A stretch of 64,000 nt of DNA from Deltaproteobacteria bacterium (GTDB taxonomy: Bacteria > Myxococcota_C > UBA6777). Position numbers and translations under genes: made by a program. Where the stretch lies: NCBI GenBank assembly GCA_002731275.1, contig PCBK01000035.1, positions 1 to 64,000 of the forward strand, read 5' to 3'. Below are positions 40,114-54,013 of this stretch, piece after piece; the first letter of the stretch is position 1; each line of letters begins with the position of its first letter. The notes under the pieces are model-generated. The model saw nothing but the letters and a program-made list of their open reading frames with translations, was not told the origin of the DNA and searched no databases.

Positions 40114-43100
40114 TCAGGCTTGTTTGGGGGTGGTTCCGTCTTGTTGTTGATGGGCTGGATTCCCGACCCAGATACTATTAGGGGATGTGGTCTCACCTTT
40201 CATCAGGTAGGCATCAGCTTCCAGCAGTGTGTCATCTTGTAGCTCGGTGCCGTAGTGGATGAGCGCATGTGCACCGATGGTGCATCGTTTACCGATCTTG
40301 ATCGGCTCCGATTTGTAGAAGCCATCTTCGAGGGAGTGGGATTGAATCAGCGTGACGCGGTTGAGGATCGTGTCATCGCCGACTTCAAGGAGTGTTCGTT
40401 CGGAGATCGAGACGCCATCATCGAAGACACGTGCGCCCATTTTGACACCAAGTAGACGCCACAACAGCGGTCGAAAAGGTGTGCCACGAAAGATCGGTGG
40501 AGAGTCTGAGGCCCCGAGCTTCCAGTAGTTTTCGATCTGCCAAAAGTCCTTGTCGTAGATCGTGCGGTACATCGCATGAAGAGACTTGTATCCCCGACTC
40601 ATCCAGTCCAGAAGCCATGCAAAGAACAGGTAGTAAACAAACGCAGCGCCTGTGACGGCGACAAAAGAGATGACGCCAAAGTCCGCATATCCGAGAAATC
40701 CAACGTAGGCAAAGACCAGCATGCTGACAAAGAGGAACCATGTACTGAGCAAGAAGCTGCCGATCGTGATCAGGTTGTACTTGTTCTTTTCGGGGAGCTT
40801 TTCGAGACGCATCGCTTCGAGCTCTTCGACGCTGAGACTGCCTTCTACGAAGGTCGAGCGTGGGATCTCAAAGGCTGGCGCACCGAGCAATCCCACGTTG
40901 TGTTTGACTTCGCCGTCTGTGGGGACCATCACTCTCGTCGCGAGCAGACAATTGTTCCCCACACGTGCATCATATGGGTACAGGACGCTCGTGCCGACGT
41001 AGCTTTCATCACCGATGGAGGCCGGGGCGATGACAAAAGAGGAGGTCGAGAAGGAGGCATTCACCACATCGAGACCATCCGAAACCATCGTCCCAGTCCC
41101 AACTTCGCACAGCGTTGGGATATCCTGTCGTTCAACCAGACCAAAGTTCGTCCCAGTCTGTTTTAAGACCTTCCCAAGCCCCCAACCCATCCACTTCAAA
41201 AAATGTGGCTTGAACGAGCTATCCCCAAACAACGTCTTGAAAAAAGCAACGTTTGAGAACAACTGTGTATAGCTAAAGAGGAGATGGTGTGGACCGTACA
41301 GTGGATATGTCTTTCCAGGGACGAGGAGCAAGGCGAGTAACCTTGGCAGACCGATCATGAAGAGTATCCCAAAACCGATAAACACGGCCATCGCGACGAC
41401 CGATAGTAGGAGGGTGTCCCAGGCAAAGAGCGAGCGCAGGCTACCTGTCCAGGCTGAGAGTGTAAAGAGCGAGATCTTTGGGCCAAAAAACTGTGGCAGG
41501 ACATTGTATATGAGCATGAAGGGCAAGAGCGCGAGTGAGAAGAGCAAGACAAACTGTGCGAGTAAGTAAAGTGTCTTGCGAAGTGTGGAGTTCTTTCCGA
41601 CTTCGACTTTGCGGTAGTTTGTTTGTGCCTCGATCGCTGGAGAGCCGTGATAGGTCTTGCCTGCTGGAATGTCGCGGTGTGCAAGTAACGCCGAGGAGTG
41701 GCCGAGCTGTGCGTCGTCGCCAAGCTCTGTGTGAATGTCGATGAGAGCCTTCTCTCCAACGTAGACGTTGTTTCCTACAGTGATGGGGCCTGTGTAGATG
41801 TACCCATTTTCTGCCTTGTATCCCGAGAGCATACTCGCACGCTGAAAGACACAGTGGTCCCCGATGGTCAGCATGTCCGTACACAGCGGGACAAACGAGC
41901 CAAAGTAGACAACCTCTCTACCAATATCCGCCCCAAGTAACCGCAAGTAGAAGTTGAAAACAGGGGTCCCTTTGAACAACACGAAGGGGTTGGTCTCGAT
42001 AAAGAGACGCACAAACCAAAAGCGAAAATACTGCATACTCCAGATTGGGATACGTTCTTCTTTCCAGGTGCCGATCAGTAGCTTCTTGACCGCGACAGGG
42101 AGTATCGCAAAGAAGATCAACAAACCCAGCGTCGAAAAGAACACACGGGAGAAGAGCCCAAAGGCACTCGTCGCACCGATGATCCAGTCAAAAATGGTGA
42201 TCCCCAGCGCGAGGAGCGCTGTGTAAGAGAGGACATAGGTGAGTAATTGCAGCGCACCACAGAGGAGATATTCGCCTGTGCTTGCCTGATGGAAGGCATC
42301 TCGCTCGATCACCTGCTGTTGGGGTGTCGAAGCCTGTTCGAGATGGGCTGCGAGAGACTGTACACTTGGGTGGAGATAGATATCCCTCATCGCAAGTTGA
42401 AGTCCCGGTTGGCGCTCACGTACTTTTGTCGCAAATTTAGCCATTAGCAGCGAGTGCGCGCCAAGATCTTTGAAGAAGTCATCTGTCGCGGAGATCTGAT
42501 TGACATCCATCTTCATGATGTCGGCGATCGCGCCTGCGAGGACGAGTTGCAGTTCACCTTCTGGCGCGACGTACTCGGTGTGTTTGAGCATCACACGTGG
42601 TCCCGTCGGTGTGGGGAGCTTCTTTCTGTCCACTTTGTGACTCGGAAGCATCGGCATCGCAGTGAGCTTTTCGAGGTAGCTCGGGACCATGTACCCTGGC
42701 AACTGTTGGCGTAGCGTGTCGATGATCTGCTCAGCGGAGGGAGCTCGCTCGACATCTTCTCTCAATGTGTAGTAGCCGACGAGCTCGGTGACACCTTCTT
42801 CTGGATGGAAGGTGTCGACGACAGCTTGTGCGATGTCAGGTAGCTGCATGAAGACGGACTCGATCTCAGTCAGCTCAATGCGGTAGCCCCGAATTTTGAC
42901 TTGTGTGTCGATGCGACCGAGGTATTCGATCTCGTTGTCGTCGTTGATCCGGGCGAGGTCGCCGGTCCTATAGATGCGATGAGAGGGGTTGTCTGAAAGC
43001 TCCAAAAAGTCCGGTATAAAAGCTCTTTGTGTTTGCTCTGGTCTGTTGACGTACTCGCGGGCGAGGGCGATCCCTGCGACACATAGCTCGCCAACTTCGC

Positions 43101-44220
43101 CTTTAGGGAGAGCTTTGGCTTCATCTTCAGGCAAGATCATCGCGTAGTAGGTGGGCAAAGGACCACCAATGGTGACGGGCTTATTTGGGTACAGCTCTGT
43201 GAGAGTCGCTGTGACCGTCGCCTCTGTTGGGCCATATGCGTTGAGAAGGATTCGATCCTTTCGATACCACCGACGCACGATGTCCTGTGGACACGCCTCC
43301 CCTGAGACGAGTATAAAGCGCAAGTGTTCGATGTCTTCGTCGATCGTTGCGAGCAATGTTGGGACACAACAGAGCGCTGTGATATGGCGCGACTTGATAA
43401 ACTCTGCGAGCTCTGCGCCAACAAGGTTGGCATCTGATTGTCCGGGGACAAGAGTCGCGCCGGTCATCAACGGCACCCAGATCTCCTCGACTGAGAAGTC
43501 AAACGCCAACGTCATCCCCTGGTAGATCCTGTCATCAGAACGGATACCATAGACCTCTGCGGCCACACGTACGAAGTTACAGATGCTCGGATGATCGATC
43601 GCGACGCCTTTCGGATGGCCTGTCGAACCTGACGTGTAGATGATGTAGGCGAGTTCATCATCTGTGTGTCCATGCTCCTCTTTGGACAACCGATGTGCAG
43701 GGAGCGTACTTGTCGCTGCTTGGAGGCTGTCGAGGCACAATACTTTTGCGCTGGCACCTTGAAGGCGTTCTTTGTAGGCCTCGACAGTCAGGAGCAGCTT
43801 GACCTGTGCGTCTTGCGAGATGTACTCGATGCGATCGATGGGGAAGCTTGCGTCCATCGGAACGTAGGCGGCCTGTGCCTTCATCACTCCGAGCATGCTG
43901 ATGTAGGCCTGGGCAGATTTGTCGAGAATCAACCCGACGCGATCACCGGGCTTAACGCCCTGCTGGATCAAGTAACGGGCGAGCTGATTGCCTCGCTGAT
44001 CGAGCTGCTGAAAGGTCAACTCTTCCGAGTTTGTGACGACCGCGAGGTGGTCCTCTGCGAGGGTGTCTGCGCGCTGTTCGTAGAGATGTTCGAGTCGCTC
44101 CCCTGGAGCCCAACGGATGGTGTTGTCGTGACTGCTACAGACGAGGACGTTGTTGTCGAGAAAAGTGTAGGTATCCTTGGGACGAGAGGAAGCCACTCGT
44201 GAAGGCGTGGAGATAGTCAT
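40114..44220 (-). CDS. Pls-type (epsilon-polylysine synthetase-like) NRPS: adenylation, carrier, membrane and hexapeptide domains
   Basis: 1368 residues. Adenylation domain (about 30-540): YTSGSTGHPKG, NAYGPTEA, YRTGDLARI and KVDRKKLP. Carrier domain (about 550-635) with S590 in GAHSLLM for phosphopantetheine. The rest (about 650-1368) alternates membrane helices with three left-handed beta-helix/acyltransferase-like segments, as in the TIGR02353 NRPS-terminal and Pls family. Hand-extracted specificity positions read D241, F242, E245, C284, L304, S306, A328, V336, T337, K529; the Glu at the third position recalls codes for basic residues (Lys, Dab). The partner EctB-type gene upstream suggests diaminobutyrate as substrate. 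Product inferred, possibly poly-Dab. Confidence 0.85.
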   Translation of the reverse strand: MTISTPSRVASSRPKDTYTFLDNNVLVCSSHDNTIRWAPGERLEHLYEQRADTLAEDHLAVVTNSEELTFQQLDQRGNQLARYLIQQGVKPGDRVGLILDKSAQAYISMLGVMKAQAAYVPMDASFPIDRIEYISQDAQVKLLLTVEAYKERLQGASAKVLCLDSLQAATSTLPAHRLSKEEHGHTDDELAYIIYTSGSTGHPKGVAIDHPSICNFVRVAAEVYGIRSDDRIYQGMTLAFDFSVEEIWVPLMTGATLVPGQSDANLVGAELAEFIKSRHITALCCVPTLLATIDEDIEHLRFILVSGEACPQDIVRRWYRKDRILLNAYGPTEATVTATLTELYPNKPVTIGGPLPTYYAMILPEDEAKALPKGEVGELCVAGIALAREYVNRPEQTQRAFIPDFLELSDNPSHRIYRTGDLARINDDNEIEYLGRIDTQVKIRGYRIELTEIESVFMQLPDIAQAVVDTFHPEEGVTELVGYYTLREDVERAPSAEQIIDTLRQQLPGYMVPSYLEKLTAMPMLPSHKVDRKKLPTPTGPRVMLKHTEYVAPEGELQLVLAGAIADIMKMDVNQISATDDFFKDLGAHSLLMAKFATKVRERQPGLQLAMRDIYLHPSVQSLAAHLEQASTPQQQVIERDAFHQASTGEYLLCGALQLLTYVLSYTALLALGITIFDWIIGATSAFGLFSRVFFSTLGLLIFFAILPVAVKKLLIGTWKEERIPIWSMQYFRFWFVRLFIETNPFVLFKGTPVFNFYLRLLGADIGREVVYFGSFVPLCTDMLTIGDHCVFQRASMLSGYKAENGYIYTGPITVGNNVYVGEKALIDIHTELGDDAQLGHSSALLAHRDIPAGKTYHGSPAIEAQTNYRKVEVGKNSTLRKTLYLLAQFVLLFSLALLPFMLIYNVLPQFFGPKISLFTLSAWTGSLRSLFAWDTLLLSVVAMAVFIGFGILFMIGLPRLLALLLVPGKTYPLYGPHHLLFSYTQLFSNVAFFKTLFGDSSFKPHFLKWMGWGLGKVLKQTGTNFGLVERQDIPTLCEVGTGTMVSDGLDVVNASFSTSSFVIAPASIGDESYVGTSVLYPYDARVGNNCLLATRVMVPTDGEVKHNVGLLGAPAFEIPRSTFVEGSLSVEELEAMRLEKLPEKNKYNLITIGSFLLSTWFLFVSMLVFAYVGFLGYADFGVISFVAVTGAAFVYYLFFAWLLDWMSRGYKSLHAMYRTIYDKDFWQIENYWKLGASDSPPIFRGTPFRPLLWRLLGVKMGARVFDDGVSISERTLLEVGDDTILNRVTLIQSHSLEDGFYKSEPIKIGKRCTIGAHALIHYGTELQDDTLLEADAYLMKGETTSPNSIWVGNPAHQQQDGTTPKQA

Positions 44221-44279
44221 GAGTATCGTTTGCTCCGAACGTTGAATTGGATCTCATGTCGATGGTTGGTAGAGAAGGC

Positions 44280-44306
44280 CACGTACAAACAGGGTGTTTG
44301 TACGTG
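44280..44306 (-). other. Perfect hairpin between the aminotransferase and synthetase genes
   Basis: CACGTACAAACA pairs perfectly with TGTTTGTACGTG around GGG (12-bp stem). There is no T-tract on the minus strand, so it is more likely an mRNA stability or processing element, or an operator, than a terminator. It lies in the 111-bp gap in the ectB-synthetase operon. Confidence 0.55.
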
Positions 44307-44331
44307 AAAGAGCGTATGGGAGAGGTCGGGT

Positions 44332-45591
44332 TTATCCGTTGAAGACAGCTACGCAGGCTTTTTCGAGGATGTCGAGTCCTTCGTCGAGTTGGTCCGTCGG
44401 TGTGACGAGTGGCATCAGGCACTTGACGACTTCGTCGTGGGGACCGGAGCGTTCGATAATCATACCGTGTTGGAAGCAGAACGCGGAGATCTTCGCGGCT
44501 TTGTCGGGGTCGGCACATCGGATGCCTCGCATCATGCCACGTCCCCGGACTTCGACGACCTCTTCGGGGAAGCGTGTTTGGAGCGCTTGCAGGCGTTGAC
44601 CGAGGTGCTCACCTTTTGCGCGGACGTCTTGGGCAAAGGTGTCATCTTTCCAGTAGTGTTCAAGTGCGGCGGTTGCGGTGACAAAGGCGTGGTTGTTACC
44701 GCGGAAGGTGCCGTTGTGTTCGCCTGGCTTCCAGACGTCGATGTCTTTTTTGATCATCACGAGCGCGAAGGGCAATCCGTAACCAGAAAGAGATTTGGAG
44801 AGGACGACCATATCAGGGTTGAGACCTGCTGGCTCGAAACTGAAGAAGGTGCCTGTGCGTCCGCAACCTGCCTGGATGTCATCGACGATGAAAACGATGT
44901 CGTTGTCGTTTGCGACTTTTTGCAGCTTCTTCAGCCACTCGAAGCTCGCGGCGTTGAGACCGCCTTCGCCCTGTACCGTCTCTACGACAATCGCGGCGGG
45001 CTTATCGAGTCCACCAGAGGGGTCGGAGAGCAGCTTTTCGAGATAGGCGACGGAGTCGAGTCCTTCCATGTAGCCATCATACGGGATCACAAAGGTGCCG
45101 GAGAGGGGAATCCCTGCGCCTTGTCTGTGGTGTTGGTTGCCCGTTGCTGCGAGTGCGCCGTTGGTGACGCCGTGAAAGCCGTTGGTGAAGCTGACGATGG
45201 TTGTGCGCCCTGTGGCTTTACGCGCGAGTTTAAAGGCGGCTTCGATGGCGTTGGTCCCTGTTGGACCTGTGAACATCATGACGTACTCGAGTCCGCGTGG
45301 TTCGAGGATCAGCTTGTTCATCGTACGCAGAAATGTCTCTTTGGCGGTGGTCTGGAGATCGAGGCTGTGTGTGATCGCGTCTGATTCGATGTAGTCGAGC
45401 AAGGCTTGCTTGAGCTGTGGGTTGTTGTGTCCGTAGTTGAGGCTACCTGCGCCAGCGAGGAAGTCGAGGAAACGGCGCCCTTCGATGTCCCAAATTTCTG
45501 CCCCTTGGGCTTTTTGTAGTGTACATGGGAAGGCTCTTGAGTAAGAGCGTACTTCTGATTCAAGGGCGCTGAATGTGTTTGATTGTGTCAT
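44332..45591 (-). CDS. ectB: Diaminobutyrate-2-oxoglutarate aminotransferase (EctB type)
   Basis: 419-residue class-III PLP aminotransferase with EctB-family motifs: FTGPTGTNAIEAAFKLARK, SFTNGFHG, VETVQGEGG, DDIQAGCGRTG, and PLP lysine in SKSLSGYGLP. It converts aspartate semialdehyde plus Glu to L-2,4-diaminobutyrate plus 2-oxoglutarate. Length matches EctB (about 420). The ATG at 45591 gives the N-terminus MTQSNTFSALES; its ribosome site is weak (GAGAAA). No ectA, ectC or ectD is next to it, so ectoine synthesis is not supported; the downstream Pls-like synthetase is the likely consumer. Confidence 0.9.
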   Translation of the reverse strand: MTQSNTFSALESEVRSYSRAFPCTLQKAQGAEIWDIEGRRFLDFLAGAGSLNYGHNNPQLKQALLDYIESDAITHSLDLQTTAKETFLRTMNKLILEPRGLEYVMMFTGPTGTNAIEAAFKLARKATGRTTIVSFTNGFHGVTNGALAATGNQHHRQGAGIPLSGTFVIPYDGYMEGLDSVAYLEKLLSDPSGGLDKPAAIVVETVQGEGGLNAASFEWLKKLQKVANDNDIVFIVDDIQAGCGRTGTFFSFEPAGLNPDMVVLSKSLSGYGLPFALVMIKKDIDVWKPGEHNGTFRGNNHAFVTATAALEHYWKDDTFAQDVRAKGEHLGQRLQALQTRFPEEVVEVRGRGMMRGIRCADPDKAAKISAFCFQHGMIIERSGPHDEVVKCLMPLVTPTDQLDEGLDILEKACVAVFNG

Positions 45592-47316: not shown

Positions 47317-50300
47317 TTATTCACATGCGTAGATGTGTATCCAACCGTCTTGATTGGTGACGCTCATGTAACGAGCGTCTGCGCTCCAATTGACGTGAAG
47401 AGGCGTATGTGTGGATTGTTTGAGATTTGTTATGGTTGTGTAGCTTGCGGTCTCTTTGATCGCGATCTGTCCACTCTGGTAGGTGATCGCGAGCCATGAA
47501 CCGTCTGGTGCGTAGCGCAAAGATGTTGCATCATTCTTCAACATAAGGGACTGCTGTTTCGTTCCTTGCACCCCATTATATAGGTGGAGTTGTTTGTCAG
47601 CCGTCAGGATCGCGAGCGTGTCTGTGCTGGGGTGGAATTGCAACGCGATGATCTGCTCGTTCATTTTAAGTGTATGGAGGAGTGTGCCATCGCGTTTCCA
47701 GAGCTTGACATCTTTGTCCACCGAACCCGAAGCGATGTATTCACTTTGATGATGAAAGGAGAGGGCAGTGATCGAGGCTGTGTGTCCTTTGAGCGTTGTT
47801 GTTGATGTGGTTTTTCCAACCTCCCAGAGCTTGACGAAGGTATCATCTGCGCCTGTCGCGAGCCACTTCCCATCGGGGCTGTATGCGCTTGTCGTCACAC
47901 GGATGTTGTGTTCGGAGAGGGTCTGGAGCTTTTTGTAGGTTTTGTAGTCCGCGACGACCGCTTTTTTGTCCGTGCTTGTCGTGAGGACTTGGGGCAGCGT
48001 GGGGTGCAGTGCTTGTGAGAGGATCGCGGAGCCGTGGTTGTACATGGTGCGGAGCAGGCGCCAGTCGCTTCTTCTGTAGACACGTGTTTGTCTGAGCAGG
48101 GAGGAGGCGAGAAACAACGCACCGTCAGGACTAAAGCCGCTACTCGTCGCGGCAATTTGGCTGTAGTTAAAACTTTTTTGCGCCGATACAGCGTTGAGAG
48201 ACCAGAGCTTGATCGAGCGATCCTCTGAGGCGCTGATCAGCGTCCCACCGTCGGCGCTTAATGTGATCGATGTAACGAGCGCTGTGTGCGTTTGTCCTTG
48301 CCGAAGCAAGCGACCATTTCCTGCATCCCACAGCCTGACGATTTGATCCCAGCTACCCGTCGCGATGATCGACTCGTCGTTGGAGACGAAGAGCGTCTGG
48401 ATGGCTTGTGAGTGGGTGATCGTTCGTTGGACTTGGCCCGTGTCGAGTCGCCAGATCTTCACGGTGCTATCATAAGATGCTGAGTAGAGGCGTTTGCCAC
48501 TCTGTCCAAATTGAAGATCTGCGATCGCGCCTTGATGGTTCTCCAATGTCCTCGTCAGTGCACCTGTCTCCACTTCCCAGAGCATGATCTTTCCATTGAA
48601 GAGTCCCGCCGCAATTTGTTTCCCGTCTGGGCTGATCGCGACGCTGATCACACGTTGGTTTTGTGTGAGGAGTGTACGTGTGAGCTGCCCTGATTGAAGA
48701 TCGTAGAGTCTGACGGAGCCATCCCATGAACCTGTCGCGAGGTGTTTGTTGTCTGGAGTAAATGCGAGTGAGGAGACACGCGCCTTGTGGTCGCTCCACG
48801 TCCTCATCAAGACGCCATCTGCGAGCCGCCATACGGAGGCGGTGTTGTCGTCAGAAGCTGTCGCAACCCACTGACCATCTACGCTGAGGGAGACGTCGTT
48901 GATCGCCTTCTTGTGTGCCTGCCATGAGCGAATCGATTGACCGTCCTTGGGATTCCAGAGGTGGAGTGTACCGTCACGCCCACCTGAGGCGAGCTGTGTA
49001 GCATCCTGATTGAGCGCGATCGCATGGACACCTTGGCTATCGGCCTGGGAGATCTCCCGTGTGGGAGTATGTTCGGAGGTTCCCCATATATCAGCGCTCG
49101 CATCCCACTGTGAGGACAAAAACGAACGGCCATCAGGTTGATATTGTACAAAACCGACGTATTGGTTTCTGGGATCGAGGGTCTGAAGGTGTTGACCAGT
49201 GTCGACATCCCAGACTCTGATCCTGCGGTCGTATGAGGCTGAGATCAGTGTCTTTCCTGTTGGGTGAAAGTCCACACTGCGGACATTGGAGGTGTGACCA
49301 GAGAGTGTTCTGATGGCGTCGCCTGTGTCTGTCTTCCAGAGGCGAATCTTTTGATCCCACCCAGACGTCGCGATTTGGGCCTTATCTTTTGAGAGACTGA
49401 CGCCGTAGAGCCATGTCGCGTGCCCTTTGATCTCCACGACACTTGTGCCGTCTGAAACCTTCCATATACGTGCACTTTTGTCCGATGAGGCAGATGCCAA
49501 CCATGTCCCATCATCACTCCAATCGATGTCGTTGATCGGACCTGTGTGTCCTGTCAGCGTCCTGACGAGACTGCCGTCGCTGGTCTTCCAGAGCTTGATC
49601 GTCGCGTCCCACGAAGCTGTCGCCACGAGGCTGCCGTCGTGGTTGAACGCGATGTCTGTAAGGGGCATGGTGTGGCCCTTCAAAGTAAAGAGCGTCTTCC
49701 CTGTCGTGATGTCCCACAGCCGAGCCGTTGTGTCGGTTGAACCTGACGCGAGGAGCTGGGTTGTCGGGTGAAATGCGACGGCGCGTACGCCGTATTGGTG
49801 TCCTGTGAGGTTTTGTGTGATGGAGACCTTCCCTACATCCCAAAGACGAAGTGTCCCCGAGCGTGGGTACGCCGTCGCGAGCCATTTTCCGTCATGGCTG
49901 AGGGCGCTCATTGAACGGCGGTCGTAATGGATGTGCATATCCCAGCGCGCCTTCGCATCACTTACGTTGAATGCGCGCGCAAATTGATCGTAGGAGGAGC
50001 TGATGACGCTCTTGCTGTCCGGTGTAAAAACGACACTGTACTGCGTCGAATTTCCCGGACGTAAGCTAAATCGAGACGAGCCACTCTGTGCATCCCACAC
50101 ACGCAGACGCCGGTCCGAACTGACGGATGCGATGTACTTTCCATCTGGACTGTATTTGATATCGTTGATCGTGCTGGTGTGGGCTGACCAATTCGTCGTG
50201 GCCTTGCCTGTCGCGAGTTCAAAGATGCGAATGTATCGGTCACTGTTGCCTGTCGCAACGGCAACATGTTTGTCATCTGGGCTGATCGCCAACCCATACA

Positions 50301-51339
50301 CCGTATCTTTTGGAGCCTGGATCGTGTGGATGGCCTTCCCGTCAATCCCCCACGTGCGGAGCGTTTTGTCAAACGAACCCGACGCGATGATCTTGCTGTC
50401 GTGTGAGAAGGCAACTGGGCGAACCGTCGAGGTGTGTCCTGTCATCGTGTGGGCCAGCGTGTTGGTGCTCAAATCCCATAGCCGAACGGTTCTATCTGCG
50501 GAACCTGACGCGAGCCACTTTCCGTCTGCACTGAAGGCGATCCCGTAGACTGTCGATGTGTGTCCCTTGAGCGTCTGTTTCAAGCGACCATCACTGAGAT
50601 CCCAAAGCTTGATTGTGCGGTCACTTGAGCTTGTCGCGAGCCACTTACTGTCATGGCTAAAGGCCAACTCCTGAACGCGGCTTGTATGTCCAAGCAAGAC
50701 ATACTGAAGATGCTTATCGCTCATGCGCCAGACCTTGGCCAGATTGCCGTCACTGTTTCGCGAAGCCAGCCACTTTCCGTCTGGGCTGATCGCGATCTTG
50801 AGGCTCCCGAGTGAGCTGCCAATGGTGCTAAACGCGATCCACTTGCGATGGAGGACTTTTGGGAGACAGCACTTTTTGTTCTGCGTATGTGCACAGAGTG
50901 AAGGGAGCGGTCTTGTCGGAAGATCGAGCAGGTCTTCTTTGGGGCCCTCTTCAGGAGTGGACTCTTCTATGCCACCGTCGGAGACGTCCTGAAGAGGCTC
51001 TTCAGGCGTGTTCACCGTCTCTATTGGACGTTCTTCTTGCGGTTCTGCTGTGGGCTCTTGTTTGCGTTCTGTCGTTGGCTCCGTTGTCTTCTCTGTGAGT
51101 GGGACCTTGCATACGCCATTGGCACACACGTGTGTGTCTGAACAGTCGGCATTTGCAGTGCACTGTAGACATTTTTGTTGGACACATCGTTTTTTGTCTT
51201 GGGGGCAATCAGTGTCGCTGTTACATTCGGTTGTGGGGGGAGGTGAGCACCCAAGCCAAGACAGCCCTAAGCATCCAATGAGCCCAAAGAGGAGCACAAA
51301 GAGACGAGTATATCGTTGTAAGAGGTGTGATGTTTTCAT
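47317..51339 (-). CDS. WD40-repeat lipoprotein with about 28 blades
   Basis: 1340 residues: signal peptide with lipobox SWLGC (C31), a Cys-rich stretch and a Pro/Glu/Thr linker (about 35-150), then about 28 consecutive WD40-type repeats (GHTSxV...DGKWLASGSxDxTIKLWD), which is four times seven and would suit four seven-bladed propellers. It is anchored outside the cytoplasm, probably as a scaffold. The start ATG overlaps the stop of the upstream protease gene (ATGA) and follows AGGAGG, so the two are translationally coupled. No enzymatic domain is visible. Such large secreted WD40 proteins are seen in Myxococcota-like genomes. Confidence 0.9.
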   Translation of the reverse strand: MKTSHLLQRYTRLFVLLFGLIGCLGLSWLGCSPPPTTECNSDTDCPQDKKRCVQQKCLQCTANADCSDTHVCANGVCKVPLTEKTTEPTTERKQEPTAEPQEERPIETVNTPEEPLQDVSDGGIEESTPEEGPKEDLLDLPTRPLPSLCAHTQNKKCCLPKVLHRKWIAFSTIGSSLGSLKIAISPDGKWLASRNSDGNLAKVWRMSDKHLQYVLLGHTSRVQELAFSHDSKWLATSSSDRTIKLWDLSDGRLKQTLKGHTSTVYGIAFSADGKWLASGSADRTVRLWDLSTNTLAHTMTGHTSTVRPVAFSHDSKIIASGSFDKTLRTWGIDGKAIHTIQAPKDTVYGLAISPDDKHVAVATGNSDRYIRIFELATGKATTNWSAHTSTINDIKYSPDGKYIASVSSDRRLRVWDAQSGSSRFSLRPGNSTQYSVVFTPDSKSVISSSYDQFARAFNVSDAKARWDMHIHYDRRSMSALSHDGKWLATAYPRSGTLRLWDVGKVSITQNLTGHQYGVRAVAFHPTTQLLASGSTDTTARLWDITTGKTLFTLKGHTMPLTDIAFNHDGSLVATASWDATIKLWKTSDGSLVRTLTGHTGPINDIDWSDDGTWLASASSDKSARIWKVSDGTSVVEIKGHATWLYGVSLSKDKAQIATSGWDQKIRLWKTDTGDAIRTLSGHTSNVRSVDFHPTGKTLISASYDRRIRVWDVDTGQHLQTLDPRNQYVGFVQYQPDGRSFLSSQWDASADIWGTSEHTPTREISQADSQGVHAIALNQDATQLASGGRDGTLHLWNPKDGQSIRSWQAHKKAINDVSLSVDGQWVATASDDNTASVWRLADGVLMRTWSDHKARVSSLAFTPDNKHLATGSWDGSVRLYDLQSGQLTRTLLTQNQRVISVAISPDGKQIAAGLFNGKIMLWEVETGALTRTLENHQGAIADLQFGQSGKRLYSASYDSTVKIWRLDTGQVQRTITHSQAIQTLFVSNDESIIATGSWDQIVRLWDAGNGRLLRQGQTHTALVTSITLSADGGTLISASEDRSIKLWSLNAVSAQKSFNYSQIAATSSGFSPDGALFLASSLLRQTRVYRRSDWRLLRTMYNHGSAILSQALHPTLPQVLTTSTDKKAVVADYKTYKKLQTLSEHNIRVTTSAYSPDGKWLATGADDTFVKLWEVGKTTSTTTLKGHTASITALSFHHQSEYIASGSVDKDVKLWKRDGTLLHTLKMNEQIIALQFHPSTDTLAILTADKQLHLYNGVQGTKQQSLMLKNDATSLRYAPDGSWLAITYQSGQIAIKETASYTTITNLKQSTHTPLHVNWSADARYMSVTNQDGWIHIYACE

Positions 51340-53828
51340 GAGCGTGCCTCCTGTCTGCGTCGGAGGAAGAGGGGAAGCAGCAGACAGACAAAGAGCAATG
51401 GGTCCCAAGGGGGCGAAGAGTGTGTGGTGCAATTGCAGCCTCCACTGGCTTGAAGAGCTTCTTTTTTGGGCTCTGGTGTGGGGTCTTTTTCGGCGCTGGC
51501 GTCAGCGACAGGTGCTGGTTCGTCAGGTGCTGATGGTTCGACCTCTGGCTCCGTGACAGGCTCTGTTGTGGGTTCGGCCTTCGGTTCGGGCGCTGGTTCT
51601 TCGATCTCGTTGGGGTAGAGACACTTTCCAGCGACACATTTTGTTTGTGTGGGGCACTCTTGGTCGGAGGCGCAGTCGTTTTTTGTGCCAGGGGGAAGAC
51701 ACATCCCATTGGGACCAAATAAGAGTTGGCAGGTGCGGCCTTTTGGACAGGCGTCGTTGCCATAGCATACGCAGATCTCGATATTGCTGAATCGATTACA
51801 GACACCACCTGATTGGCATGTTTGTGTCTTGCTACAATCTTCAAAACAGCGGCTCACAGAGCCCGTTGAGACACAACGTAGTCCCTCCTGACATGTATTG
51901 AAGGCGTCACATTCTTGCCCAAGTGACCGGTTGCCAGGTGCCTCTTTCACACAACGACCGGCGGCCTGGAAAGAGCGACAGCTGAATCCACTTTCGCAAG
52001 TCTTGTTTTGTGCCTTGGGGGCACACGCGCCGATTTGATTGGAGATGTTGTTGCAGATATAGTCTGCACCGCACTCGTTGTTATTGCGGCATTGGCAGAC
52101 ACCACTCTGACATGAACCGCCACCAATCGCGGCGCAATCTTGTGTCGTGTTACAGGGGTGGAGGCAGAGTCTTGTCGAGCCGAGTGAGTAGCAATTCATG
52201 GGGCGGACACAGGTGTTGTTGCTGGTACAAGCGCTCCCTGCGTTTCCTTCTGGAATGCCACATGTGTGGATACATCGTTTGCCGGAGATGGTGTCAGCGC
52301 AGGTCAGTGGGTCTTTGCAGGGGGCGGGGTGACAGGCGTCTCCATACTCTCCCCCTTGAGGTGGGCTGCATGCGCCTGCGATACAGATCTCACCATCAGG
52401 ACAGTGTGCGCTGAGTGTACATGGTGTTTGACAACCGCCTTCTTCGGGGGTGCATTGGCTGGGGACACCTGGATAGAGTTCTTTGCATGTATAGCCTGCC
52501 GGACAAAAATCACCGGCGCCACAGGCTTGTGTACAACGTTTGCTGCCTTCGAGTCCAAAGCAGCGCCCTTTGGGACCACAGTCTTCGTCTTTTTTGCATG
52601 GTTGGCAAAGCTGCGCATTGGCTGCGACGATCGCGGGACGACATTGGCTGTTGTCGCAGACCTCACCGGGACCGCAATCCTTGTTTGTCGTACACGATAT
52701 CGCCGGACAGACTTGTTCAAACGGGAGACACAATGTCTGTACGCCGCTCGTCGTTTGTTTTGTGTTGCAGTAGGTCCCTGAAGGGCAACAGCCATTTGTA
52801 TTGCATTTGCGCAAGCACCGATACCCCGTGTCAAAGCGGTAACAAACGCTGTCGCTTCCACAGTCTTCGTCTTTTTGGCAGGGTTTGCAAACTTGGGGTT
52901 GGCTGGAGAAGGGGACAGGTTCACACTTCTTATTGCCTGAACACCGTGCACAGAGGCCACATTCTGCGGTGCTTGTGCAGGAGGCATCTCCATCCCCGTA
53001 GGTCTTGAGGATCGATTGGATAAAGGAGGTGTATGTATCCGTTCTCATCGAAGTCCCTGTACCTGTACAGCTTGAACGAGGAGGGTTGGAGCCGGGGACT
53101 TGTGGAGCGTTGACATATGAGTTTACGCCGATCACGCGGAGTTTTCCGAGAACCAGAACGAGCGCGGGACCACCAGAGTCTCCGTGGCAGACACTTTTGT
53201 TCGGGGCTTCGTGTACAAAGCGGTCGGCGAGTAGCTGCTTCATCGGGATCTCAGCGCCGTATTTTTTGTTGGGGGAGATCGAGGTCGGGGTGCTTTGGAT
53301 GAGTCCATACCCAAGAAACAACATATTCTTGCCTTGGAGTTGGCTGCTGAGGGAGGTGAGATTGACAGGCATGGGAGTGGCGATCTTGACCTTTGTTTTG
53401 AGGATCCCGAAGCCTATATCACCGCCGTCACTGACGTCTGTTGTCCACTTGGGGTGGTTCTTGAAGAGGCTTGGGTCAAAGTCGAAGTAGTGGATATCAA
53501 AGCCACTCGCGACCTTCGTGTTGGGTGTGTCGATGCGAAATTGCAGTCGTTGGCCCGCTTTGACGTAGCGAAGGGCTGCATCGACACAGTGTGCCGCTGT
53601 GAGGACAACCCGTGATGCGATCAAGGTCCCCGTACAGAACGTTCGCTGGTTGTGGGCCAGCGCGCCGACCTCTGGGTGGCGAAGGTCGGGGGTACCGCCG
53701 ATGATCGATTGTGTCTGTTGACCGATGGGTACCTGTGTATCGTGAGAGGGGGGCTGGCAACCCCACACCCACAGCATCCAACTACACGATATGACAACCA
53801 ATAAACGTAACCAAAAACGATGATTCAA
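51336..53828 (-). CDS. Secreted trypsin-like serine protease with Cys-rich repeats and MYXO-CTERM-like tail
   Basis: 830 residues from a TTG start (53828) behind AGGAGAG; a Met codon is absent near the signal peptide. Signal with Cys at 24 (WVWGC). The trypsin-fold domain (about 43-290) has zymogen-like SIIGG (41-45), H80 in TAAHC, D137 in GGDIGF and S218 in GDSGGP. A long Cys-rich part (about 310-720) repeats C-x-x-x-x-DCGPxGxCxG units. A Pro/Glu linker and a C-terminal GGCNC, hydrophobic stretch and RRRQEARS match the MYXO-CTERM sorting pattern. The last bases overlap the WD40 gene start, so they are coupled. Confidence 0.9.
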   Translation of the reverse strand: MNHRFWLRLLVVISCSWMLWVWGCQPPSHDTQVPIGQQTQSIIGGTPDLRHPEVGALAHNQRTFCTGTLIASRVVLTAAHCVDAALRYVKAGQRLQFRIDTPNTKVASGFDIHYFDFDPSLFKNHPKWTTDVSDGGDIGFGILKTKVKIATPMPVNLTSLSSQLQGKNMLFLGYGLIQSTPTSISPNKKYGAEIPMKQLLADRFVHEAPNKSVCHGDSGGPALVLVLGKLRVIGVNSYVNAPQVPGSNPPRSSCTGTGTSMRTDTYTSFIQSILKTYGDGDASCTSTAECGLCARCSGNKKCEPVPFSSQPQVCKPCQKDEDCGSDSVCYRFDTGYRCLRKCNTNGCCPSGTYCNTKQTTSGVQTLCLPFEQVCPAISCTTNKDCGPGEVCDNSQCRPAIVAANAQLCQPCKKDEDCGPKGRCFGLEGSKRCTQACGAGDFCPAGYTCKELYPGVPSQCTPEEGGCQTPCTLSAHCPDGEICIAGACSPPQGGEYGDACHPAPCKDPLTCADTISGKRCIHTCGIPEGNAGSACTSNNTCVRPMNCYSLGSTRLCLHPCNTTQDCAAIGGGSCQSGVCQCRNNNECGADYICNNISNQIGACAPKAQNKTCESGFSCRSFQAAGRCVKEAPGNRSLGQECDAFNTCQEGLRCVSTGSVSRCFEDCSKTQTCQSGGVCNRFSNIEICVCYGNDACPKGRTCQLLFGPNGMCLPPGTKNDCASDQECPTQTKCVAGKCLYPNEIEEPAPEPKAEPTTEPVTEPEVEPSAPDEPAPVADASAEKDPTPEPKKEALQASGGCNCTTHSSPPWDPLLFVCLLLPLFLRRRQEARS

Positions 53829-54013
53829 GTTGCTCTCCTCACATATCCATACGGCGAAAACACGTCCTAGAACTCGACAAGCATTCGGCGAAAAGATGTA
53901 CGGAAACAAACATCATTTCACCAAGCTTGAGGCCGGTGGATTGTAGCATATTTTGTGGGAAACTGTTACACGTTACAGGGGAGGGAGCCTTGTCTCCAAA
54001 CGCAAAGGGACAA

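Follow-up and report, generated by a model that had tools for sequence, protein, structure and literature searches.

The window, i.e., the whole stretch of 64,000 nucleotides that was analysed, carries two intact genes on the minus strand, ectB and, 111 bp downstream, a gene that encodes a putative homopolyamino acid synthetase (pls) (Table 1). The intergenic inverted repeat has perfect 11-bp arms (positions 44281-44305), reaches 13 pairs once extended, lacks a T-run, and is found as a single copy in the whole genome. It is possible that it constitutes an operator or an RNA hairpin. The promoter and terminator scans yielded nothing above chance level. A foreign origin of the pair is unsupported, as its G+C content is 54-56% versus 52% for the window, and its third-position G+C is near that of the neighbouring genes.

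Table 1. Predicted features of the ectB-pls locus (positions in the window; residues refer to the synthetase).
Feature	Coordinates	Strand	Evidence or remark
ectB, L-2,4-diaminobutyrate--2-oxoglutarate aminotransferase, 419 aa	44332..45591	(-)	TIGR02407, Aminotran_3
ectB-pls intergenic region	44221..44331	(-)	Carries perfect inverted repeat
pls, Pls/PosA-family cationic homopolyamino acid synthetase, 1368 aa	40114..44220	(-)	TIGR02353
Adenylation domain, residues ~44-535, code DFECLSAVTK	42616..44091	(-)	TIGR01733, PF00501, PF13193; PosA-controlled alignment
Carrier (thiolation) domain, residues 561-627, phosphopantetheine Ser590	42340..42540	(-)	PF00550; alignment
Membrane-bound C-terminal domain, residues 654-1356	40153..42261	(-)	TIGR02353 match 2-695/695; hexapeptide similarity; hydropathy

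The ectB gene encodes a class III aminotransferase whose PLP lysine, K266, lies within the motif LSKS. In a profile search, the protein scored 640.9 bits against the TIGR02407 equivalog (cut-off 552.2), and its best solved relatives are the Dab transaminases 9s1q and 6rl5, in agreement with the initial annotation of this DNA, which had claimed an EctB-type Dab aminotransferase. It shares 56-58% identity with the EctB proteins of ectoine operons, and its closest plasmid relatives are members of ectABC operons. Unlike the ectoine operon ectABC(D), the window has no ectA, ectC, or ectD beside ectB. The initial annotation had already described an ectB without ectA and ectC, and this description can now be extended to the genome scale: EctC had no match in the whole assembly (10.75 Mb in 200 contigs, estimated to be 94.65% complete) or across the phylum sample of five genomes, and EctA had none above the cut-off in these five. 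The phylum sample consists of the genomes of five species, the group being treated as one phylum. When applied to two plasmids known to carry ectABC, the EctC model scored 191-193 bits, and thus, the absence of EctC is meaningful; the EctA search was run without a positive control. An ectoine pathway was rejected on the basis of these searches.

The synthetase exceeded the cut-offs of the Pls/PosA family model TIGR02353 (540.3 bits; cut-off 423.1) and of the amino acid adenylation model TIGR01733 (411 bits; cut-off 317), and Ser590 of its carrier domain aligned with a Ser in every row inspected. The hydropathy of the C-terminal domain revealed six hydrophobic segments arranged in three pairs (residues ~652-719, 882-970, and 1150-1205), predicted to be six TM helices. 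The three intervening modules (residues ~778-862, 1054-1096, and 1292-1356) are each similar in sequence to left-handed-beta-helix enzymes, matching hexapeptide acyltransferases (e.g., maltose acetyltransferase) or gamma carbonic anhydrase, and the conserved residues common to the whole Pls/PosA family are present in all of them. This organization agrees with the three-module layout described for PosA and Pls (PMC10522769). An AlphaFold model of the C-terminal domain, built from two sequences, had a pLDDT of 30.6 and is uninformative on its fold. All the family tests made place the synthetase, by its sequence, within the Pls/PosA family, and the adenylation-carrier-membrane-three-module architecture proposed in the initial annotation is borne out by TIGR02353, TIGR01733, PF00550, the six hydrophobic segments, and the three beta-helix modules.

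The specificity code was read from the ten Stachelhaus columns of an alignment of 30 sequences, yielding DFECLSAVTK (D241, F242, E245, C, L304, S306, A328, V336, T337, and K529). As a control, the published code of PosA, DMEHNGTVSK, was recovered from the same columns once position 4 had been shifted by one residue, and an epsilon-poly-lysine synthetase gave DAESIGTVVK. The residues that had been previously read by hand were thus reproduced. The Asp and Glu residues of positions 1 and 3 are both present (D241 and E245), and the conserved Glu of position 3 has been reported to bind the side-chain amine of the substrate (PMC10522769), in line with the earlier remark that an acidic third position is seen with basic substrates. 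Position 2 sets the chain length, being Phe in the PDAP and PDAB synthetases, Met in PosA (Orn), and Ala in Pls (Lys) (PMC10522769). Thus, with Phe at position 2 and Glu at position 3, the code indicates a short diamino acid, i.e., Dab or Dap. Since Dap and Dab synthetases both have Phe at position 2, the code alone is also compatible with Dap. In the PDAP synthetase of S. albulus, a weaker activation of Dab and beta-lysine was also observed (PMC4668381).

The identical code DFECLSAVTK is found in the synthetases of Streptomyces NBC_01527 and NBC_00841, whose genes are followed by those of a Dat-type Dab aminotransferase and an aspartate kinase, and in Embleya, with a Dat-type enzyme encoded next door. 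The gamma-poly-L-Dab synthetase gene, pldA, has been described in a context with dat and ask (PMC8117764). Therefore, synthetases with the same pocket are linked to two types of Dab aminotransferase, EctB here and Dat in Streptomyces. Outside the Pls-type proteins, the genome of the window encodes one adenylation domain above the family cut-off, with the non-acidic pocket DMASLAGVYK, and thus, no rival Dab user was found among its strong adenylation domains.

The same pair of genes, in the same order and separated by 221 bp, is present in Deltaproteobacteria bacterium M3003 (G003), which belongs to another genus of the same phylum; its EctB and synthetase share 71% and 57% identity, respectively, with those of the window. 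Plasmids of Skermanella mucosa and S. rosea (Alphaproteobacteria) also carry ectB directly upstream of pls, with 57-58% identity for EctB and 47% for Pls. The Skermanella pair resembles that of the window in gene order, strand, EctB-type enzyme, and C-terminal clade, but its code is DFECLSVVTK, i.e., with Val instead of Ala at position 7, and it is followed by S41 peptidase and porin genes that are absent in the window. The adjacency of ectB and pls recurs in a second genus and a second phylum, which is more than chance would explain. The single weak spot in this linkage is a further genome (G004) that encodes a synthetase with the same code as the window: its contig starts 293 bp upstream of the gene with no EctB end there, and none was found elsewhere in this fragmented assembly. 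A synthetase of Paenarthrobacter, with the code DFECLSVVTK, has no adjoining ectB. One scan of the genome contigs returned the copy of G003 and one unrelated NRPS, and nothing more. The initial annotation had considered that such a pair with its own Dab supply would be a notable example; the pair is confirmed, but it is not unique, since Skermanella has the same one. The EctB tree is compatible both with a shared pls-linked ancestor of the EctB proteins of the window and Skermanella and with separate ancestry.

The two main parts of the synthetase gave different trees, from which the Embleya synthetase, which spans two reading frames, was left out. In the C-terminal tree, the enzymes of the window, G003, G004, Skermanella, Paenarthrobacter, and rhizobial plasmids form a clade (100/100) together with a second synthetase of the same genome as the window. 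This clade lies far apart, with 19-24% identity, from PosA, Pls, and the pldA-like enzymes of Streptomyces, the latter standing in for PldA; the authentic PldA, PddA, and PDAP synthetases fall outside the set compared. In the adenylation-domain tree, all the DFE types group together, Streptomyces included (100/99). Forcing the two trees to agree made the likelihood significantly worse, with p-AU values of 0.027 (C domain) and 0.001 (A domain) for clades that were chosen after the trees were seen, and with a long C-terminal branch. The disagreement between the trees suggests a domain exchange, and the C-terminal domain has apparently been exchanged relative to the adenylation domain. Judging by these comparisons, the polymerising domain represents a deep branch with no characterised member among the enzymes compared.

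Taking these data together, we consider it probable that ectB and pls form a dedicated pathway to a cationic homopolymer of 2,4-diaminobutyric acid, most likely gamma-linked L-Dab. According to this proposal, EctB would transform L-aspartate-4-semialdehyde, provided by the ordinary aspartate pathway, and glutamate into L-Dab, as expected from its equivalog-level similarity. In the adenylation domain, Dab would be bound with its side-chain amine opposite Glu245, in a pocket shortened by Phe242, and converted into the aminoacyl-AMP; by homology to Pls and PosA, it would then be loaded on Ser590 of the carrier domain as a thioester. The membrane C-terminal domain would add Dab units singly, most likely by isopeptide linkage at the gamma-amine, and the predicted product would be gamma-poly-L-Dab of several to tens of residues, released outside the cytoplasm. 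The L configuration is favoured because no gene encoding a DapF-like racemase adjoins the pair, whose neighbours encode an MBL-fold protein and an alpha/beta hydrolase, whereas the gamma-poly-D-Dab pathway (PddA/PddB) requires a coupled DapF-like racemase (PMC8225329). The polymer would likely act as a secreted antimicrobial or antifungal compound or as a surface polycation. The initial annotation had proposed a Dab polymer or amide pathway; the polymer is supported by the DFE code, the dat and ask loci of Streptomyces, and the recurrence of the pair, and the amide alternative is unnecessary.

Among the closest known counterparts is PldA of Streptomyces celluloflavus (PMC8117764), compared here through the NBC_01527 and NBC_00841 loci, which share with the window an identical code, a supported common clade of adenylation domains, and an adjoining Dab aminotransferase gene. 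However, the aminotransferase of these loci is Dat-type and encoded downstream, while that of the window is EctB-type and encoded upstream; they include an aspartate kinase gene, while none was found in the neighbouring ORFs scanned around the ectB-pls pair; and their C-terminal domain, about 23% identical to that of the window, belongs to another clade. Thus, as far as can be read from the genes, the pathway resembles that of pldA, apart from its type of aminotransferase, its lack of an aspartate kinase, and the lineage of its C-terminal domain. PosA, the delta-poly-L-ornithine synthetase of Acinetobacter baumannii (PMC10522769), matches the synthetase of the window in domain layout, in the Asp and Glu of code positions 1 and 3, and in having a Gram-negative host, but it has the code DMEHNGTVSK and shares 38% identity in the adenylation domain and 20-22% in the C-terminal domain, and its single-gene locus lacks an aminotransferase. 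The Pls enzymes for epsilon-poly-L-lysine of Streptomyces likewise share the domain layout and TIGR02353, but they have the code DAESIGTVVK, 36-37% (adenylation) and 20-21% (C-terminal) identity, and a peptidase as partner instead of an aminotransferase. In the literature consulted, poly-Dab with dedicated precursor genes is reported only from actinomycetes, and the delta-poly-ornithine of Acinetobacter is described as the first polymer of this kind from a non-actinomycete.

Since the C-terminal domain shares only 19-23% identity with those of the characterised or pldA-like enzymes, the linkage and length of the polymer are extrapolated, and the exact product is predicted with less confidence than the substrate. 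It might be argued that the synthetase activates Dab but yields a product different from a linear gamma-linked polymer, such as short oligomers, a chain that is alpha-linked, branched, or acetylated, or Dab bound to a component of the envelope. The separate deep clade of its C-terminal domain and the conflict between the trees (p-AU 0.027 and 0.001) are in favour of such a product, as is the presence of a dedicated GNAT gene immediately after the synthetase gene in G003 and in Rhizobiales, and after the gene of the second Pls in the genome of the window. Nevertheless, the domain order, the six TM helices, and the three modules are those of Pls and PosA, the family-wide conserved residues are present in all three modules, and the characterised members all make isopeptide homopolymers, which renders a different product unlikely.

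A slightly less probable explanation is that the synthetase polymerises Dap, or a mixture of Dap and Dab, while the neighbouring EctB serves another use. Phe at code position 2 has been reported for PDAP as well as for PDAB synthetases (PMC10522769), and related DFE-type synthetases occur without a Dab gene beside them. Against this, the adjoining EctB is kept in three genera of two phyla, no Dap-type genes were recognised beside the pair, and the identical code occurs in the Streptomyces loci tied to dat and ask. Finally, it is very improbable that EctB serves an ectoine or N-acetyl-Dab osmolyte route and lies beside pls incidentally, because, although it exceeds the ectoine EctB equivalog cut-off and its closest plasmid relatives belong to ectABC operons, this explanation is already largely refuted by the lack of EctC, and of EctA above the cut-off, in 5/5 genomes of the phylum, with a working EctC control, and by the adjacency to pls kept across phyla.

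The Dab homopolymer pathway proposed here makes the locus a sharp, testable prediction of a substrate, a precursor enzyme, and a polymer in a little-known phylum other than actinomycetes, and Skermanella, in which the pair is also present, offers a cultured stand-in. Should the polymerising domain truly be a separate lineage with swapped adenylation domains, its comparison with Pls and PosA would help to show which part sets the linkage and the chain length, a question still open in this family. More tentatively, and with a rather small chance of being right, the synthetases of the window, Skermanella, and the rhizobia might constitute a distinct class that combines a Dab/Dap-type adenylation domain with an uncharacterised membrane polymerase lineage, fed by EctB in some cases and accompanied by a GNAT in others, and that makes a chemically new Dab polymer (in its linkage, length, acetylation, or attachment) in Gram-negative hosts.

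With regard to the GNAT acetyltransferase, a gene encoding a protein of 150 residues lies at most 12 bp after the synthetase gene in G003. A 52% identical protein is encoded downstream of the second synthetase of the genome of the window, and a GNAT gene also follows the rhizobial synthetases of Aureimonas and two Phyllobacterium. There is no GNAT gene beside the synthetase of the window. No match to the G003-type GNAT was found in G001 and G002, both without DFE-type synthetases, and there is a single match each in G000 and G003. This acetyltransferase may have a tailoring or self-protection role.

The synthetase-adjoining GNAT acetyltransferase is a dedicated partner of the DFE-type synthetases, i.e., those whose ten-residue adenylation code begins with DFE. 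Its gene lies directly downstream of such a synthetase in G003 (a relative from another genus), in Rhizobiales and on contig C17 of the window's own genome (G000), and both G003 and G000 carry a single GNAT copy of this kind. The C17 synthetase, the second complete Pls/PosA-family enzyme of G000, is 43% identical to the window's pls product, has the code DFECLGTITK and is preceded by a divergent Rrf2-type regulator and an NmrA-like gene. It possibly makes a second Dab or Dap polymer.

Synthetases with other codes occur elsewhere. DSECYGGVTK is that of a Bdellovibrionales homologue, which activates arginine modestly (PMC10522769), and DAESIGGVVK is close to the epsilon-poly-lysine code. In Pseudonocardia EC080619-01, a cysteine synthase-family gene is found 2.5 kb downstream of the Pls-type gene, a possible poly-Dap locus. 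Of the Pls terminal domain, a stand-alone protein encoded on contig C3 of G000 matches the final module alone: positions 484-695 of TIGR02353, at 120 bits.

In the ectB-pls gap, ACGTACAAACA and TGTTTGTACGT flank CCC as a perfect inverted repeat, which extension brings to 13 pairs and which has an RNA z-score of -3.2. The repeat is single-copy in the whole genome, and no T-run follows it. It might be an operator, or a hairpin setting the ratio of the two gene products.

Also in the window, a WD40 repeat protein with a Cys-rich, lipoprotein-like N terminus adjoins a trypsin-like Cys-rich protein.

Coordinates of the features (L, locus handle)
Feature	Position	Note
GNAT acetyltransferase genes	L021:2565-3017(-); L023:11383-11847(+)	directly 3' of DFE-type synthetases
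Second synthetase	L023:6976-11220(+)	G000 contig C17
DSECYGGVTK-code synthetases	L027:9539-13588(-); L026:1468-5475(+); L095:4848-8867(+)	G003, G004 (a further relative), a Streptomyces plasmid
DAESIGGVVK-code synthetases	L024:5380-9606(+); L025:9151-13377(-)	genus g2, same phylum as G000
Pseudonocardia Pls-type gene	L068:4896-8869(+)	annotated as two ORFs (split)
Stand-alone protein	L012 / L029:8442-9137(-)	231 residues
Inverted repeat	window 44279-44307	
WD40 repeat protein	window 47317-51432(-)	1371 residues
Trypsin-like protein	window 51336-53909
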